This document shows, piece after piece, positions 12,824 through 33,320 of a DNA stretch of 33,320 nucleotides. The notes under the pieces were generated by a model that saw only the letters and a list, made by a program, of their open reading frames with translations, was not told the origin of the DNA and searched no databases. This DNA comes from Methanobrevibacter sp. Lineage in GTDB: Archaea; Methanobacteriota; Methanobacteria; Methanobacteriales; Methanobacteriaceae. Positions within the stretch are counted from its first letter, which is position 1, and each line of letters opens with the position of its first letter. The stretch lies in assembly GCA_017434555.1 (NCBI GenBank), contig JAFRFB010000014.1, positions 1 through 33,320 on the forward strand. Direction: 5' to 3'. Position numbers and translations under genes: made by a program.

Positions 12824-13150
12824 ATGAGAGTTATTTTAACAGGAACAGGTAGTGCAGTTGGAAAGACTACAATTGCAACAGGAATCATGAAAGCATTATC
12901 TGAAAAATATAATGTGCAGCCGTTCAAAGTAGGTCCGGACTATATCGACCCATCATACCACACTTTAGCAACTGGAAATACTTCCAGGAACTTAGATTCA
13001 TTCTTTATGTATGACGGACAGGTCAGGGACTCATTCAATAAGGCGATGAAAGATAAGGACATTGCAGTTATTGAAGGAGTCAGAGGCCTTTATCAACATC
13101 TAACAATTTTTCAATTTCACCATCCAATAAATTTTAAATATAAAATTTAA
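12824..13150 (+). pseudogene. Truncated cfbB/cbiA-type amidotransferase gene
   Basis: The first 90 codons match the N-terminus of the CobB/CbiA family, which in methanogens is CfbB, the Ni-sirohydrochlorin a,c-diamide synthase of coenzyme F430 synthesis. Visible are the P-loop [11 protein letters not shown], then [12 protein letters not shown] and IEGVRGLY. After GVRGLY (about 13093) the similarity stops and the frame runs on for about 18 unrelated residues to a stop at 13150, just at an inverted repeat. The family is about 450 residues long, so the ATPase half is incomplete and the glutaminase domain is gone. A TATA-like TAATATATAAT at 12795-12805 remains upstream. A functional copy must exist elsewhere if the cell makes F430. 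Confidence 0.8.
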
Positions 13151-24366: not shown

Positions 24367-24394
24367 AAAAAAAGAATAGAGGATTAAATCCTCT
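24364..24394 (-). terminator. Hairpin terminator of the second adhesin-like gene
   Basis: On the minus strand AGAGGA-TTTAA-TCCTCT starts at the stop codon and is followed by ATTCTTTTTTTTT. The antiporter gene ends just to the left, so the spacer of 27 bases serves both convergent genes. Confidence 0.72.
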
Positions 24395-27324
24395 TAATTA
24401 ATTTGTATTGTGTTTGCAATATTACAACCATTATAACTTGATGTGATGATATATTTACCACTCATTAAGTTAATATTTAATTGAGCAACACCAGATGAGT
24501 TAGTTGATCTATTATAGAACAAACCATTAATGTTAAAAGTTACTACTGCATTTGCTAATGGATTACCTTGACCATCGACAAGATTTGCATTAAATGTGGA
24601 TCCATCCTTGTAGCTCATGGTTAGGTCATTTGCAGATAAAACAGATTTGACCGTAATATTGTTTGATACCCTACAACCACCATATTCAGCAGTGATTATG
24701 TAATCGCCAGGCTGTAAGTTAATATTAAGTCTTGCATAACCTGATTCATTTGTGGTCCTCTCATAGAACACACCATTAATGTTGAAGGTAACTGTTTCAC
24801 CAGCACCGGCATAGCTTCCATAATCATTAACGAGTCTTACAATATACTGTGAATCGTTTCTATAATATTTCACCAAATCATTATTTTCAACAATCTTTGG
24901 AATGACAGTGATAATATTTGAACTCATTTCACCTGTTTTATTGTTAATAGCAGTTATGATATATTCCCCTTGCTCAAGGTTGATATTTAATCTTGCCATA
25001 CCATCATCACCAACTGAACGGGTGTAGAAGATACCATGAATATTAAAAGTAACAGATGTTCCACTAGCTAAATAATTACCATCGGAATCCCTGAATGTTG
25101 CACAGTATTGTGTTGCATTTCTATAGACTTTTGTAATGTCAGTCCCATTTACTGTTGTTAGGATAGTTATTGTAGGATATAGAGTTACATCATTATAAGT
25201 ACCGTTACCATCAAAATAGACAGTAGCTTCATATTCACCACTGTTTAGATTAATTGCAATTGAAGTATTTCCGTATGCATTAGTTGTACGATTGTAAGTA
25301 ACACCATTTATAGTTATTTGAATGGATGCGTTGGCAATAGGATTTCCACTGCTGTCAGCCAAATTAATGACCAATCTGTCAGAAGCACCATAATATTTAG
25401 TTAAATTATTTGCGGTTAAAGTAACATTTTCAGATTCCAATACTATAATGGTAGCTGTAGCATTAGCTGATTCATACTTGTAATCACCACCATAATAAAC
25501 ATAAAGCTCAAATTCACCAGCAGTTAAATTGGAACATTCAAATACTCCAACACCGTCATTGATTTCCACTTCATAAGTGGAATTGTCAAATAAAACAGTT
25601 ACATTGTCATTTATTTCATCATCTGACAAGACAATATCTAAAGACAGCCCTCTGCTTTCGTAAACTTCAGTATCATTGACATCAATTGAAACTTCAACTT
25701 TAGGTAAAACATTGAATGAATTGGTATAGTTACTTTCAGGATTTAAATCATTGCCGCCATAATATCCATAAATTGTATAATTTCCAACAGCCAAATCACT
25801 AATTGTAATATTACCTTTTCCTGAATCCAATACAATGGTGTAATTTTCATCATTTAAAGTGATTGTAACGTTTCCAGTCGCATCGGAAGGCAAATTAGCA
25901 TAGACAGTTGCATTTTGACCAACATAAATATCATCTGCATGAACATACAATGAAGATATATTTATTACAAAATTAAAGGTAAAATCAAGTCCCAATAGAT
26001 TTATTGTCAGGGATCCGTTACCCATTTCTTCAGCCAAATAGTTTATGTCAGCACTTCCATTTGTAAATGAAACGGATGTTTCATTGACACTACCGCCGAC
26101 AACATCAACAACTTCCAAATCACAATCATGCAATTCATATTCATCAGTTTCAGAAATACTTCCCTGAGCATCAGTAATATGTTTTAAATCTACAGTTATG
26201 ACAGAATTTTTACCGACATATATTTCGGTAGGGTTTGCAGTAACATTTAAGAATAACCAGTTGTCTACAGTTACATTTCCCCAGGTATTTGGTGCAGTAA
26301 TTAAATCATTCACAGTATTTCCCCACCAATTTCCATTAGCGATAGCAGATGCAGTATCTGTAGTTGCATTAACAGTATTTGAATTATTCAAATCATTACC
26401 AATGAAAACAGAATTTTCTAAAGTTAAGAAAGTGTTGCTTCCAACAGCAATAGCTTCACCACTGGCTGCTGTATTATTGGTGAATACACAACCGGTTATG
26501 AGACCAGTATCATCTTGACTGTACCAGTAAATAGCACCACCTTGGAAAGTATTACTTAAATAGGAGATAGCACTATTGGACTTGAAATAAGATTTTGAAA
26601 CAGTACCATTAGCACCGTTCCAGTAAATAGCACCACCATACCAAGCAGTATTGTTAATAAAAGTGGAATTATATACTAAACCGTTATCAGCACCGCCACC
26701 CCAAAAGATAGCTCCACCATTAACGGTTCCGGAGTTATTTATGAAATATGAATTTGATACAACACCATCATCACCAAACCAAAGGACGGGATATGAAATC
26801 GGTGCGGTGTTACTTGACAAATCATTGTTTGTAAAATAACATCCGTCAATTAAACCACTGCTTGCATTCCAATAAACAATAGCTCCCAAAAATTGGGAAA
26901 CATAGTTGTCTGAAATGTTACAATTGATTAATTGACCGTTTTCTCCATTCCATAAAATTGCATTAGTTTTACCGGAAGTAATATTAATGTTTTTAATAGT
27001 CAAATTGTTTAAGATTACATTAGATCCAGTGATTGTGAATACTTTTGATGCTCCGTTTGCATCAATAACATGATTATTACCGTTGATAGTTATTGTCTTA
27101 TCAATAGTAATTTCAGAATCAGAGTACACATAATCCTCAGTTAAGTTTATTTCGCCTGATGTATCACTATCAATAATTGTCTGTAAATCAGAAAAAGTAG
27201 CAGCTACAACATCAGAATCTTGAATAGCCACAACATCATCATTAATATTATCATTTGCAGAAACTGCAGAAATGGACAATATTAAAAATAAAAATATTGA
27301 TAGATATTTTATTTTTCTATCGAT
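24394..27324 (-). CDS. Adhesin-like surface protein with beta-helix and Ig-like modules, apparent ATC start
   Basis: About 976 aa if translated from ATC at 27324-27322. The frame upstream of the nearest standard start (TTG 27279) encodes a complete signal peptide: DRKIKYLSIFLFLILSISAV followed by SA, and a perfect AGGAGGT lies six bases before the ATC. Starting at TTG 27279 would lose the hydrophobic core. Residues about 50-340 form a beta-helix with GGAIFWGG and GGAIYW turns; 350-640 are several Ig-like domains; the last 340 residues are the four-module cassette shared with the other adhesins. No catalytic residues are seen and no membrane anchor. Many N-x-S/T sites suggest heavy N-glycosylation. 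Likely surface attachment or recognition. Confidence 0.85.
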   Translation of the reverse strand: MDRKIKYLSIFLFLILSISAVSANDNINDDVVAIQDSDVVAATFSDLQTIIDSDTSGEINLTEDYVYSDSEITIDKTITINGNNHVIDANGASKVFTITGSNVILNNLTIKNINITSGKTNAILWNGENGQLINCNISDNYVSQFLGAIVYWNASSGLIDGCYFTNNDLSSNTAPISYPVLWFGDDGVVSNSYFINNSGTVNGGAIFWGGGADNGLVYNSTFINNTAWYGGAIYWNGANGTVSKSYFKSNSAISYLSNTFQGGAIYWYSQDDTGLITGCVFTNNTAASGEAIAVGSNTFLTLENSVFIGNDLNNSNTVNATTDTASAIANGNWWGNTVNDLITAPNTWGNVTVDNWLFLNVTANPTEIYVGKNSVITVDLKHITDAQGSISETDEYELHDCDLEVVDVVGGSVNETSVSFTNGSADINYLAEEMGNGSLTINLLGLDFTFNFVINISSLYVHADDIYVGQNATVYANLPSDATGNVTITLNDENYTIVLDSGKGNITISDLAVGNYTIYGYYGGNDLNPESNYTNSFNVLPKVEVSIDVNDTEVYESRGLSLDIVLSDDEINDNVTVLFDNSTYEVEINDGVGVFECSNLTAGEFELYVYYGGDYKYESANATATIIVLESENVTLTANNLTKYYGASDRLVINLADSSGNPIANASIQITINGVTYNRTTNAYGNTSIAINLNSGEYEATVYFDGNGTYNDVTLYPTITILTTVNGTDITKVYRNATQYCATFRDSDGNYLASGTSVTFNIHGIFYTRSVGDDGMARLNINLEQGEYIITAINNKTGEMSSNIITVIPKIVENNDLVKYYRNDSQYIVRLVNDYGSYAGAGETVTFNINGVFYERTTNESGYARLNINLQPGDYIITAEYGGCRVSNNITVKSVLSANDLTMSYKDGSTFNANLVDGQGNPLANAVVTFNINGLFYNRSTNSSGVAQLNINLMSGKYIITSSYNGCNIANTIQIN
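24397..25440 (-). repeat. Shared C-terminal cassette, copy 2 (minus strand)
   Basis: Four modules matching copies 1 and 3 in order. DNA similarity to copy 3 is high: for example 24640-24700 and 31110-31180 share long runs such as ATATTGTTTGATACC and GCAGTGATTATGTA. It is inverted relative to copy 1 about 12 kb away. Confidence 0.8.
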
Positions 27325-27435
27325 TTTAATACCTCCTAATTTACTTACATATAATATTTAAATTTTTTCTATTATATAATCCTACTTAACAAATATAACA
27401 AATTTATTAACATAGTTACGACAAATAAGTACATA
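27325..27435. promoter_or_regulatory. Divergent promoter region between adhesin 2 and the DUF2142 gene
   Basis: Contains the AGGAGGT site of the adhesin (27331-27337 on the minus strand) and AT-rich TATA-like elements in both directions (CATATAATATTTAAA near 27349, TATTATATAATCC near 27369). The DUF2142 gene has no clear ribosome binding site. Confidence 0.45.
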
Positions 27436-28908
27436 ATGAAGATAAATAACTTAAAAGAAGAATTAATTAATAATAAAAAATATCTCTTATTATATGCAAT
27501 ATTAATACTAATTTGCATAATTTTAATGTTTGGCCCTAAAAATTATCAGTATTGGTATTTCGAATCAGCATCAATTCCAGTCATATCACTAATTGGACTT
27601 GTTTTGATATTATTCTCTTTTAAGAAAAAACTTGAGCTGGAAAAAGTTGCATTGCTTTTAATCATTATATTCGGATTAATGATGGTGTTTTTAGCTCCAC
27701 CAATGGCTCATCCAGATGAAATGAATCATTTTACAAAAGCAGAACTCTTATCTGAAGGTATTTTATATCCTGAAAAAAGTGATGCTGGAGTTTTGGTTAA
27801 TGATTATTATTTTCCATTAAATGAAGCTCAAAAGGGATTGACCATTCTTGATAATCCGCACATCTTTGATGAAATAAGCAACCACAAGGGATACGCACAA
27901 ACAAACGATAGCCCATTTTATTCATATATTCCCTCAGCAATTGGAATATTGATTGCAAAATGCTTACATTTAACTGCAGTATTCTCTTTATTATTCGCAA
28001 GGCTTTTGAATTTGATATTATATGCCGGTGTTGCATATTGGGCCATAAAAAAAGCGCCCGCATTTAAAATCGGATTGACATTGATTGCAGCAATGCCTAT
28101 GGCAGTTGCACAGGCATCATCCGTAAGTTACGATGCATTCATCATAACTTTTACCCTAATAATACTGACATATTTCATCAAAATGTTTGAGCAAAAAGCC
28201 GAAAATAAAGATTTGGCAATATTTTTCATTTCAATATTTTTGATTACTCTTATTAAGCCACCATACATCATGCTTTCATTTTTAATCTTAGTGATTCCTA
28301 AAGAAAACTTCATAGAAAATAGAAACTATTCATTTATAGCAATCGCCTTACTATTTATAGCAAGCATTTTATCATTCAGCAGCTTTCTAACACCGGCCAC
28401 TCCAACAACAGTATCTGCCAGTGCCAGCAACATCTCTTCAAGTGCACAGTTAAGCTATATCTTAAATAATCCCTTATCACTATTGGAACTAATAAAAAAT
28501 TCCATCACATTGATTCCAGACACATTTGTATTGAATTCTAGTTTCTACCATTATGCGGACTTTAAAGGTCTTAAAGCATATAAATTGGCTTATTTAATAT
28601 TTTTTGTTTTATTTGCTCTTTTTTACAAACAGGACATCAACCTGTCAAAAAGAAACAGACTGATTTTAACTTCAATATTTTTAATTACATACTTTGGAAT
28701 ATTTGGCATTTTATATTTAATATGGACCCCAATTGGTTCAAATACTATTTTAGGAGTTCAATCAAGATATTTTGTACCTATAATTCCATTATTGCCGTTA
28801 ATCATCAATTACGATAAAAAATCAATTGAAAAATATGAGTATTTGATAACGCTTATAATAACTTTCTTAGTTGGATTGATTATCCTAACAATAACTCATT
28901 ATTATTAA
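27436..28908 (+). CDS. DUF2142 membrane protein
   Basis: A 490-aa protein with about 11-12 hydrophobic segments. The early loop AHPDEMNHFTKAELLSEG matches the conserved 'DE..Hf.ra..ls.G' of DUF2142, a family related in layout to GT-C glycosyltransferases, where an acidic pair in the first external loop is catalytic. A role in glycosylation of surface proteins would fit its place between two heavily glycosylatable adhesins, but that is inference. A large external loop (about 110-165) follows the first membrane pairs. No ribosome binding site is visible before the ATG. Confidence 0.75.
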   Translation: MKINNLKEELINNKKYLLLYAILILICIILMFGPKNYQYWYFESASIPVISLIGLVLILFSFKKKLELEKVALLLIIIFGLMMVFLAPPMAHPDEMNHFTKAELLSEGILYPEKSDAGVLVNDYYFPLNEAQKGLTILDNPHIFDEISNHKGYAQTNDSPFYSYIPSAIGILIAKCLHLTAVFSLLFARLLNLILYAGVAYWAIKKAPAFKIGLTLIAAMPMAVAQASSVSYDAFIITFTLIILTYFIKMFEQKAENKDLAIFFISIFLITLIKPPYIMLSFLILVIPKENFIENRNYSFIAIALLFIASILSFSSFLTPATPTTVSASASNISSSAQLSYILNNPLSLLELIKNSITLIPDTFVLNSSFYHYADFKGLKAYKLAYLIFFVLFALFYKQDINLSKRNRLILTSIFLITYFGIFGILYLIWTPIGSNTILGVQSRYFVPIIPLLPLIINYDKKSIEKYEYLITLIITFLVGLIILTITHYY

Positions 28909-30826: not shown

Positions 30827-30864
30827 AAAAAAAAAGAAAAATATTTGGCAAAAGTATGCCAAAT
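30827..30864 (-). terminator. Hairpin terminator of the third adhesin-like gene
   Basis: On the minus strand ATTTGGCA-TACTTT-TGCCAAAT (8 perfect pairs, 30843-30864) followed by ATTTTTCTTTTTTTTT. Confidence 0.78.
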
Positions 30865-33320
30865 CATGTAATTAATATATTATTTGAAATTTTACTACCA
30901 TCATACTCCGAAGTTATAATATACTGGCCAGGCATCAGATTAATATTTAAGCTTGCAATACCTCTGCTATTTGTATACCTATTGTAGAATACTCCATTAA
31001 TATTGAATGTTATTTTAGCATTATATAATGGATTGCCTTGACCGTCAACAAGCGCAGCATCAAATGTAGATCCGTCCCCATAACTCATGGTTAAGTCATT
31101 TGCAGATAAAATCGGTTTGACAGTGATATTGTTTGATACCTTACAGCCACCACAATCGGCAGTGATTATGTACTCACCAGGTTCTAAATTAATATTAAGT
31201 TTAGCATAACCTGATTCATTTGTAGTCCTATTATAGAACACACCATTAATATTGAAAGTAACGACTTCACCAGCACCAGCATAACTTCCATCATCATTTA
31301 CAATCCTAACAACATATTGAGAATCATTTCTGTAATATTTTACCAAATCACTATTCTCAATAATTTTTGGAAGAACTGTAATATTATTAGAGTACATTTC
31401 GCCAGTTACAAGATTTGTTGCGGTTATTATGTAATTTCCTGCATCAAGATTTATGTTCAGTTTTGCTAAACCGGCACCCCCATTCACATGAGGATTATAG
31501 AAAACACCATGGATATTGAATTGTACTTCACTTCCATCATCCAAATAATTACCGGCAGAATCTCTAAATGTAGCATAATACTGAGTATCATTTTTGAAAA
31601 TTTTAACAATATCCGTACCATTGACGGTTGATTTTACAATTATTGTTGCATTAGCAGTTATTAAATCAGTACCATTATATGAAACAGTTACAAAATATTC
31701 CCCAGCATTCAAGTTGATTGCAATGGAAGCTGAACCGTTTTCATTGGTTGTTCTTGAATAACTAACACCATTAATTTCAAGAGTTAATTTAGCATTTGCG
31801 ACAGGACGGGAATTGCCATCATGGAGATACATATAAAATCTTTCAGATCCACCATAATACTTGATTAAATCATCAGCGATTAAACTATATGGTCTTGAAA
31901 TTGAAATGTTGCCCTCGATAGAAGATTTGGCATATATTTCATCTCCAGAACATGTAATTACAATATTGTAATAACCAGTGTCTAAATCAGAAAGATTGAA
32001 TGATGCAGTAGCATTATTAATCTTTACCACATAAGTATTGTTTTCAATTTGGATTGTAACATTTCCAGTAACATTTTCAGAAATATTTACTGTTAAAACA
32101 TCACCCACACATTCATATGTAACATTATAATCAGATTTTTTATAAACCGTGAAATTACCAAAGTCCATGGATGGATTATACTTTTTATCCCCATTATATG
32201 TGGCATTAACGGAATAATATCCTGCATTTAATGAATCTTCAACCAAATACAATACTAAAATACCATTTAATCCATGAACAGTACTTTCATTAATATTTAT
32301 AACTTCACTAACGTTATTAATACAAATGGTTAAATTACCGGTTGCATCACCAGGTAAAAATACTAAAATTAATTCTTCTTCGCCAACAGTAATGTCTTCA
32401 ACTTCAAGAGTGATATTGGAATTGACTTTTTGAACATTGAAGATTGTGTAGTTAGATGCATAATTATAATTAGAATCATTTACTTCAACAATTACAGTAT
32501 AATTTCCCTCAGTCAAATTATCCAATATAATTAAATTATCCTCTACAATTCCCCCATATTCGTCATTTACATAATAAGTTAAATTGGAAGCTATTTCTTC
32601 TGATAATGATATGACAATTTGTTCTTCCTGTGAAGGATTAATATCGCCCGTTGAATTAAGAATTATTGTAACATTAGCCTTATTAACAACAATACTTGAA
32701 ACAGTAGATTCGGAAGTATAATAATCTGAAACAATTGTTTTAGTCAATAAAGTATAGTTACCAGCATTTAATCCATCGATAATGATATTAAAACCGTCAA
32801 TTGTCAAATTTGCATCAACTTCGATACCATCAATATCATAAACACTAGCTGAAATGCCTGTTGCATTAATGCATGTTGCAGTCAGATTAATATCATCACC
32901 ATAAGTTACAGTGACATTATCAACACTAACACTACTTGAAGCAGCCTTAATTTCAATACTTGAAACATTACTAACTGAATTATAATTTTTATCGACAATA
33001 GTTGTTGTATTAATAACATACTGACCAACAGCAAGATCAGATATAATCAAATTAAATCCATCGATAGCCAAATTATCTGAATAATCAACACCATCAATAT
33101 CATGAATAGTAGCATTAATACCTATAGCATTAGTACAAACAGCAGTCAAATTAATAACATCCGGATAAACACTAGTCAAATCATCAACATAAACTGTAGA
33201 ATTGGCTTTACCAACATCAATAACTGATGAATTAGAAACCGCAAAATGATTACCATCAACAACAGTAGTAACATTTAAAACATAACTACCAACATCCAAA
33301 CCGGAAATAGAAATATTAAA
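30864..33320 (-). CDS. Adhesin-like surface protein, 5' end beyond the window
   Basis: At least 818 codons; the frame is open to the right edge, so the N-terminus, signal peptide and any beta-helix lie outside. The visible part is all Ig-like. From the right edge come tandem repeats of 88 residues (264 bases) with SxVxVDxxTxxYxDxINLTA and IDG(V/I) in each, about two and a half copies; then several 'GNVTI..NN..Y.V.I' MG/Ig-type domains; then the four-module cassette shared with adhesins 1 and 2 (last 340 residues). Asn-x-Ser/Thr sites are dense. No protease or binding motif is visible. Probably a long stalk displayed at the cell surface. Confidence 0.82.
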   Translation of the reverse strand, partial: FNISISGLDVGSYVLNVTTVVDGNHFAVSNSSVIDVGKANSTVYVDDLTSVYPDVINLTAVCTNAIGINATIHDIDGVDYSDNLAIDGFNLIISDLAVGQYVINTTTIVDKNYNSVSNVSSIEIKAASSSVSVDNVTVTYGDDINLTATCINATGISASVYDIDGIEVDANLTIDGFNIIIDGLNAGNYTLLTKTIVSDYYTSESTVSSIVVNKANVTIILNSTGDINPSQEEQIVISLSEEIASNLTYYVNDEYGGIVEDNLIILDNLTEGNYTVIVEVNDSNYNYASNYTIFNVQKVNSNITLEVEDITVGEEELILVFLPGDATGNLTICINNVSEVININESTVHGLNGILVLYLVEDSLNAGYYSVNATYNGDKKYNPSMDFGNFTVYKKSDYNVTYECVGDVLTVNISENVTGNVTIQIENNTYVVKINNATASFNLSDLDTGYYNIVITCSGDEIYAKSSIEGNISISRPYSLIADDLIKYYGGSERFYMYLHDGNSRPVANAKLTLEINGVSYSRTTNENGSASIAINLNAGEYFVTVSYNGTDLITANATIIVKSTVNGTDIVKIFKNDTQYYATFRDSAGNYLDDGSEVQFNIHGVFYNPHVNGGAGLAKLNINLDAGNYIITATNLVTGEMYSNNITVLPKIIENSDLVKYYRNDSQYVVRIVNDDGSYAGAGEVVTFNINGVFYNRTTNESGYAKLNINLEPGEYIITADCGGCKVSNNITVKPILSANDLTMSYGDGSTFDAALVDGQGNPLYNAKITFNINGVFYNRYTNSRGIASLNINLMPGQYIITSEYDGSKISNNILIT
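30867..31890 (-). repeat. Shared C-terminal cassette, copy 3 (minus strand)
   Basis: Same four modules in the same order as copies 1 and 2, in direct orientation to copy 2 about 6.5 kb away and inverted to copy 1. Confidence 0.8.
32675..33320 (-). repeat. 264-base tandem repeats inside adhesin 3
   Basis: Units begin near 33207, 32943 and (partial) 32680 on the minus strand. Each encodes an Ig-like domain of 88 residues with conserved INLTA, IDG and G(Q/N)Y positions. More units probably lie beyond the window. Confidence 0.65.

Follow-up and report, generated by a model that had tools for sequence, protein, structure and literature searches.

A probable natural ATC start codon in a Methanobrevibacter adhesin-like gene, and near-cognate starts among secreted proteins of the genus

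The DNA analysed here, referred to as the window, is a stretch of 33,320 nucleotides from a Methanobrevibacter sp. (assembly GCA_017434555.1, contig JAFRFB010000014.1), and forms contig C113 of its own genome, G000. An adhesin-like gene on its minus strand (Table 1) encodes a protein with a signal peptide and Ig-like repeat domains, as in Methanobrevibacter adhesin-like proteins. The Big_3_5 repeats scored 79.4 bits in a profile search (cut-off 35.5), and the Big_1 and Chlam_PMP profiles both fell below their cut-offs. There are 195 matches to the whole protein in G000, many of whose proteins share its C-terminal part. At 30864-33320 the contig ends within another adhesin gene, whose C-terminal part is similar and whose start is therefore unreadable. 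Elsewhere in the window, an ORF of 108 aa (12824-13150) resembles only the N-terminal part of what we take to be a cobyrinate diamide synthase-type protein, and is therefore perhaps a truncated copy. A search of a plasmid collection gave no match.

Table 1. Coordinates of the adhesin-like gene and of the elements around its proposed start
Feature	Position in window	Strand	Remarks
Adhesin-like gene, 976 residues counted from ATC	24394..27324	-	Big_3_5 above cut-off
Signal peptide, 23 codons, IDRKIKYLSIFLFLILSISAVSA, first residue would be Met	27256..27324	-	
TTG, first canonical codon of the adhesin frame, unlikely start	27277..27279	-	Within hydrophobic core; TTA in ortholog
ATC, proposed start codon	27322..27324	-	Aligns with ATC in ortholog (L005/L064)
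Shine-Dalgarno site AGGAGGT	27331..27337	-	Read in the sequence; identical 7 bases in ortholog
TAA, in-frame upstream bound of the adhesin frame	27358..27360	-	

Upstream of the adhesin, a Shine-Dalgarno (SD) site is separated by six bases (ATTAAA) from an ATC, a codon one base off AUG that heads a real coding frame: the predicted peptide IDRKIKYLSIFLFLILSISAVSA is followed by NDN... and the frame stays open down to the stop at 24396-24394. The signal peptide was called by eye together with a simple hydropathy and cleavage-motif rule. No ATG, GTG or TTG occurs in this frame between the upstream TAA and TTG 27279, which is codon 16 counted from the ATC; a start there would leave the signal peptide without its n-region and with little of its hydrophobic core, and the next canonical codon after it is a GTG. 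The mechanical ORF list places the adhesin start at this TTG; gene callers that accept only ATG, GTG and TTG clip the signal peptide off the protein. The initial annotation had described the same arrangement, including the want of any canonical codon before one that would cost the protein its signal peptide core, and its coordinates all proved correct. The commonest spacing of ATG codons in sampled sequence of G000 and G004 was 7 nt past AAGGAGG (32 of 80 counts for SD matches of at least 7 bases, where overlapping matches of one SD can score twice), and the ATC of the window lies at this same distance from the AAGGAGG core. RNA folding at the start region is unremarkable (z -0.95). A minimal ATG-TAA is present just upstream of the SD (27345-27350), out of the adhesin frame.

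The N-terminal 441 residues of the adhesin find some match in 66 of 67 genomes of the genus. Besides its own genome, the sole close match (82% identity; next best 42%) is in G016, a Methanobrevibacter sp. MAG from goat reticulum (NZ_JAFSNZ010000003.1); both genomes are draft assemblies. The start region of this ortholog reads AGGAGGT-ATTATTT-ATC-AAC-AAA-AAA-ATC-ATG, that is, the same SD, 7 nt and an ATC, so the start site is conserved in the single close ortholog found. Its in-frame ATG, five codons on and 22 nt past the SD, could serve as a start in that species; it aligns with AAA in the window, and TTG 27279 of the window aligns with TTA in the ortholog. The two proteins share 752 of 975 aligned residues, and both reading frames are intact and free of stops. 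Over the 975 aligned codons pS is 0.68 (dS about 1.7, with synonymous sites near saturation) and dN 0.16, giving a dN/dS of about 0.09, which points to purifying selection on the pair. The two loci are largely syntenic, with a shared order of adhesin, M48-type peptidase, ATC-start adhesin and Kef-type antiporter, the peptidase and antiporter being what we take these neighbours to be from their translations. The gene just upstream of the adhesin start differs (27436-28908 on the plus strand of the window versus 4816-5712 in L064), so the SD and the ATC have been kept despite a changed upstream neighbour.

How common such starts are was gauged at SD sites without a canonical codon, by comparing near-cognates in frame and out of frame in samples of three genomes (G000, 679 kb; G004, 800 kb; G007, 400 kb). 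Among secreted ORFs of G000, near-cognates made up 9/11 in-frame codons versus 6/42 out-of-frame triplets (Fisher p 4.8e-5), a rate that is not a genome average since the G000 contigs were partly picked for holding adhesins. The figures for G004 were 3/4 and 1/20 (p 0.0076), and the 400-kb sample of G007 held no such sites in secreted ORFs. Among other ORFs the proportions were 6/26 versus 3/74 in G000 (p 0.0088) and 15/52 versus 11/121 in G004 (p 0.0014), with no significant enrichment in G007 (3/16 versus 6/53, p 0.35). Further secreted cases in G000, with an SD-led ATC, ATA, ATT or CTG, are found on contigs C111, C81 (two), C65, C45 (two), C130 and C63, and C45 has an additional one with ATT behind GGGGGT, an SD type outside the scoring script. 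This 14.5-kb contig (L084) carries three secreted ORFs with likely near-cognate starts (ATT, ATT, and ATA or ATC).

Conserved genes at large were also compared. Canonical codons were found in 99/105 SD-supported comparisons of orthologous starts (both directions, 302 ortholog pairs), and the other six were alignments one codon off, five from ATG and one from ATT; that ATT, the only near-cognate among the six, belongs to one of the adhesins on C45, and ATG stands in its counterpart in G007. Near-cognate starts are therefore uncommon among conserved genes in general, and cluster in particular genes. Some candidates were set aside or were ambiguous. An ATT start for a CfbD-like gene of G004 was rejected, with GTG or TTG three codons upstream in most plus-strand rows read and an ATG one codon on in L196. 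For L088:8007-8888, which has ATT in G004, only G004's own protein matches from residue 1 among 30 loci, the rest from residue 8 or later. A TiaS-like gene of G004 has ATT, or GTG within the SD. Nothing bearing on the start question came from scanning 60 stretches of G004 and G007 for tRNAs.

Three unrelated genes were compared at their aligned start sites across the genus. The first is a HycI-type hydrogenase maturation protease (TIGR00142, 129.3 bits, cut-off 119.1), with mostly AGGTG-type SDs. Its start codons were ATT 14, TTG 9, ATG 6 and GTG 1 in the best 30 loci (L145-L174; 64 genomes with a match), and those of a macro-domain gene ATG 15, ATA 7, ATT 6, ATC 1 and GGG 1 in the best 30 loci (49 genomes with any match); both counts lean towards the query's relatives because the 30 loci of each search are the best-scoring ones. 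Of the 14 HycI-type ATT rows, ten lack a canonical codon upstream in the same frame; the remaining four comprise three in which a GTG within the SD lies three codons before the ATT and one with a TTG 13 codons before it. For the macro-domain gene, such an upstream codon is present in 5/14 near-cognate rows and absent from the other 9; in L263 an ATG directly precedes the ATT and is the likelier start, and the GGG row has an ATG three codons on. ATG, ATA, ATT and ATC thus interchange at one aligned start site of this gene within the genus. Readthrough of a TAG in some macro-domain rows was considered and rejected, the TAG being a stop before the downstream ORF.

The third gene, encoding a secreted CobN/Mg-chelatase-like protein (PF02514, E 3e-170), was sampled at 50 loci (L305-L354), one per genome, from 56 genomes with a match. 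In the 46 loci that could be read by a strict motif the start codons were ACG 29, ATC 10, ATT 3, ATA 2, TTG 1 and ATG 1, so that a near-cognate stands behind a strong SD in 44/46. The loci outside this count (L340, L341, L342 and L353) give ACG, ACG, ACG and ACA on a looser reading. The copy in the window's own genome (G000:C111:170683, L308) has ATC at its start, as does L306. No canonical codon lies upstream in frame in 22/46 rows, none within 11 codons downstream in 21, and none on either side in 8; 24 rows carry one upstream. Nine rows are less clear: in seven the SD itself contains a GTG, three codons ahead of the start site, and in two with ACG (L322 and L328) an ATG follows two codons later.

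Outside the genus, 16 of 20 loci of the CobN-like gene (29 such genomes with a match) show an ATG or GTG where a start is expected or close by. The exceptions are an SD-led ATC in L355 (G068) and an SD-led ATT in L363; L360 is ambiguous, with an ATG before the SD and an ATT behind it, and L364 is unreadable. Of 20 HycI-type loci from other genera of the same family (L265-L284), ten carry ATG, GTG or TTG and one can be read either way; in the remaining nine, ATT and ATA are the only plausible candidates, and no canonical codon precedes or falls within roughly the first ten codons. Near-cognate starts therefore reach past one genus, and the shift in the CobN-like gene lies mainly within it.

On this evidence the ATC is very probably the true start of the adhesin. 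The explanation that we favour, with high confidence, is translation from AUC 27324-27322 by way of the strong SD, the weak codon probably lowering or regulating output. The initial annotation had left two readings side by side, a rare non-AUG start that keeps expression low, or a start-codon mutation that silenced the protein, as in phase or antigenic variation. Its first reading is supported, at least as to the use of the codon, given the SD and ATC shared with an ortholog in another species, the signature of purifying selection and the interchange of ATG with ATA, ATT and ATC in the macro-domain gene. Silencing is unlikely, and we assign only a small probability to the adhesin being a pseudogene, a silent cassette or the off state of a phase-variable gene. 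It would account for the lack of a canonical start in place; a silent cassette is conceivable in a genome with so many related adhesin matches, and an AT-rich imperfect inverted repeat does flank the start (27280-27315 and 27472-27507, 26/36 complementary). However, such AT-rich imperfect repeats were all that was found at the start by way of an invertible segment, and the best score of the region's inverted repeats was reached by 29/100 shuffled sequences, which speaks against phase or antigenic variation. A mutation is likewise at odds with an ATC common to two species that are far apart at synonymous sites; neither a differing start nor a decaying frame was seen in the two species compared, and a low dN/dS holds across the aligned length. 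Because a relative shares the ATC and other, unrelated genes use near-cognate starts, the adhesin gene looks alive rather than broken.

Initiation at an inner canonical codon (TTG 27279 here, the ATG five codons on in the ortholog), with the ATC as mere leader, is still less probable. TTG often serves as a start in this group and is the codon that gene callers pick, and the ortholog does offer an ATG, but the TTG lies 52 nt past the SD in the hydrophobic core, and neither codon is shared between the species, whereas the SD and the ATC are. We give the slimmest chance of all to another nearby in-frame near-cognate being the real start, for which ATT 27330-27328 and ATA 27312 are the candidates. 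The ATT directly abuts the SD and is without an in-frame counterpart in the ortholog, which reads GTA TTA TTT ATC at that place, and the ATA lies 12 nt beyond the ATC, where the ortholog has an ATC.

If the adhesin is indeed initiated at the AUC, the strong SD (AGGAGGU), at the spacing seen most often, would keep this codon in the ribosomal P site; with the codon so held in place, initiator Met-tRNA would start on it despite the third-base mismatch and presumably decode it as Met. The product would be the complete secreted adhesin, with a Met ahead of its signal peptide, perhaps made in throttled amounts. The weak codon would probably lower output or tie it to the stringency of start selection, in which aIF1 may take part; in a Sulfolobus solfataricus system, aIF1 is described as discriminating against non-canonical starts (PMC8211752, PMC6237735). 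The adhesin would then be one case of a lineage habit, in which AUU, AUA, AUC, ACG and CUG behind an SD recur among secreted proteins.

Near-cognate starts as such are already known. The additions here are a surface protein for which two species have in common a probable natural ATC start, and a secreted protein that is almost never ATG-started in its genus; the broad pattern matters more than this one ATC codon. A broader proposal, for which we see the chances as evenly balanced, is that start choice is relaxed in this gut methanogen lineage and that, in one class of secreted surface proteins, selection keeps the starts behind strong SDs off AUG, in favour of AUC, AUU, AUA and, most of all, ACG. 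If it is true, the stringency of start selection would offer a means of adjusting surface display, and callers that accept just ATG, GTG and TTG would set many of these N-termini in the wrong place. Should the pattern hold, many genomes would carry gut methanogen surface proteins with wrongly annotated N-termini, and these methanogens would offer a natural system for studying archaeal start-codon choice. The nearly AUG-free start of the CobN-like gene makes this question directly testable.

Near-cognate codons with a third-base mismatch serve as natural starts in infC of E. coli and in other bacterial AUU-started genes, and the weak AUU codon limits or regulates infC expression. The adhesin would likewise start one base off AUG with a third-base mismatch; it differs in being a secreted surface protein of an archaeon with AUC as its codon, and autocontrol by an initiation factor is a feature of infC. 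Starts at AUU, CUG and AUC are described as occurring at variable incidence across prokaryotes in a paper that cites the infC AUU work (PMC9845219). The same source relates conserved non-AUG starts of chloroplast genes, which resemble the present case in being proposed as a layer of translational control; in plastids, however, ACG is editable to AUG, and such editing cannot turn AUC, AUU or AUA into AUG (PMC9845219). Methanosarcina mazei is also a methanogen with non-canonical starts overlooked by annotation, and CTG starts are given there for about 5% of unannotated small ORFs (PMC11456600). Those are CTG codons of small ORFs supported by ribosome profiling (PMC11456600), whereas here ATC, ATT, ATA and ACG head long genes and the support is comparative. 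Among the matches listed in the open-access literature searched, no report of ATH or ACG starts in Methanobrevibacter was found, and the portions of PMC2812497 that treat the adhesin-like proteins of Methanobrevibacter ruminantium M1 make no mention of non-AUG starts. Those proteins are otherwise much like the adhesin of the window, being large and secreted, with Ig-like repeats and a C-terminal part that recurs genome-wide, and adhesin-like proteins are discussed there as vaccine leads against methane emission (PMC2812497).
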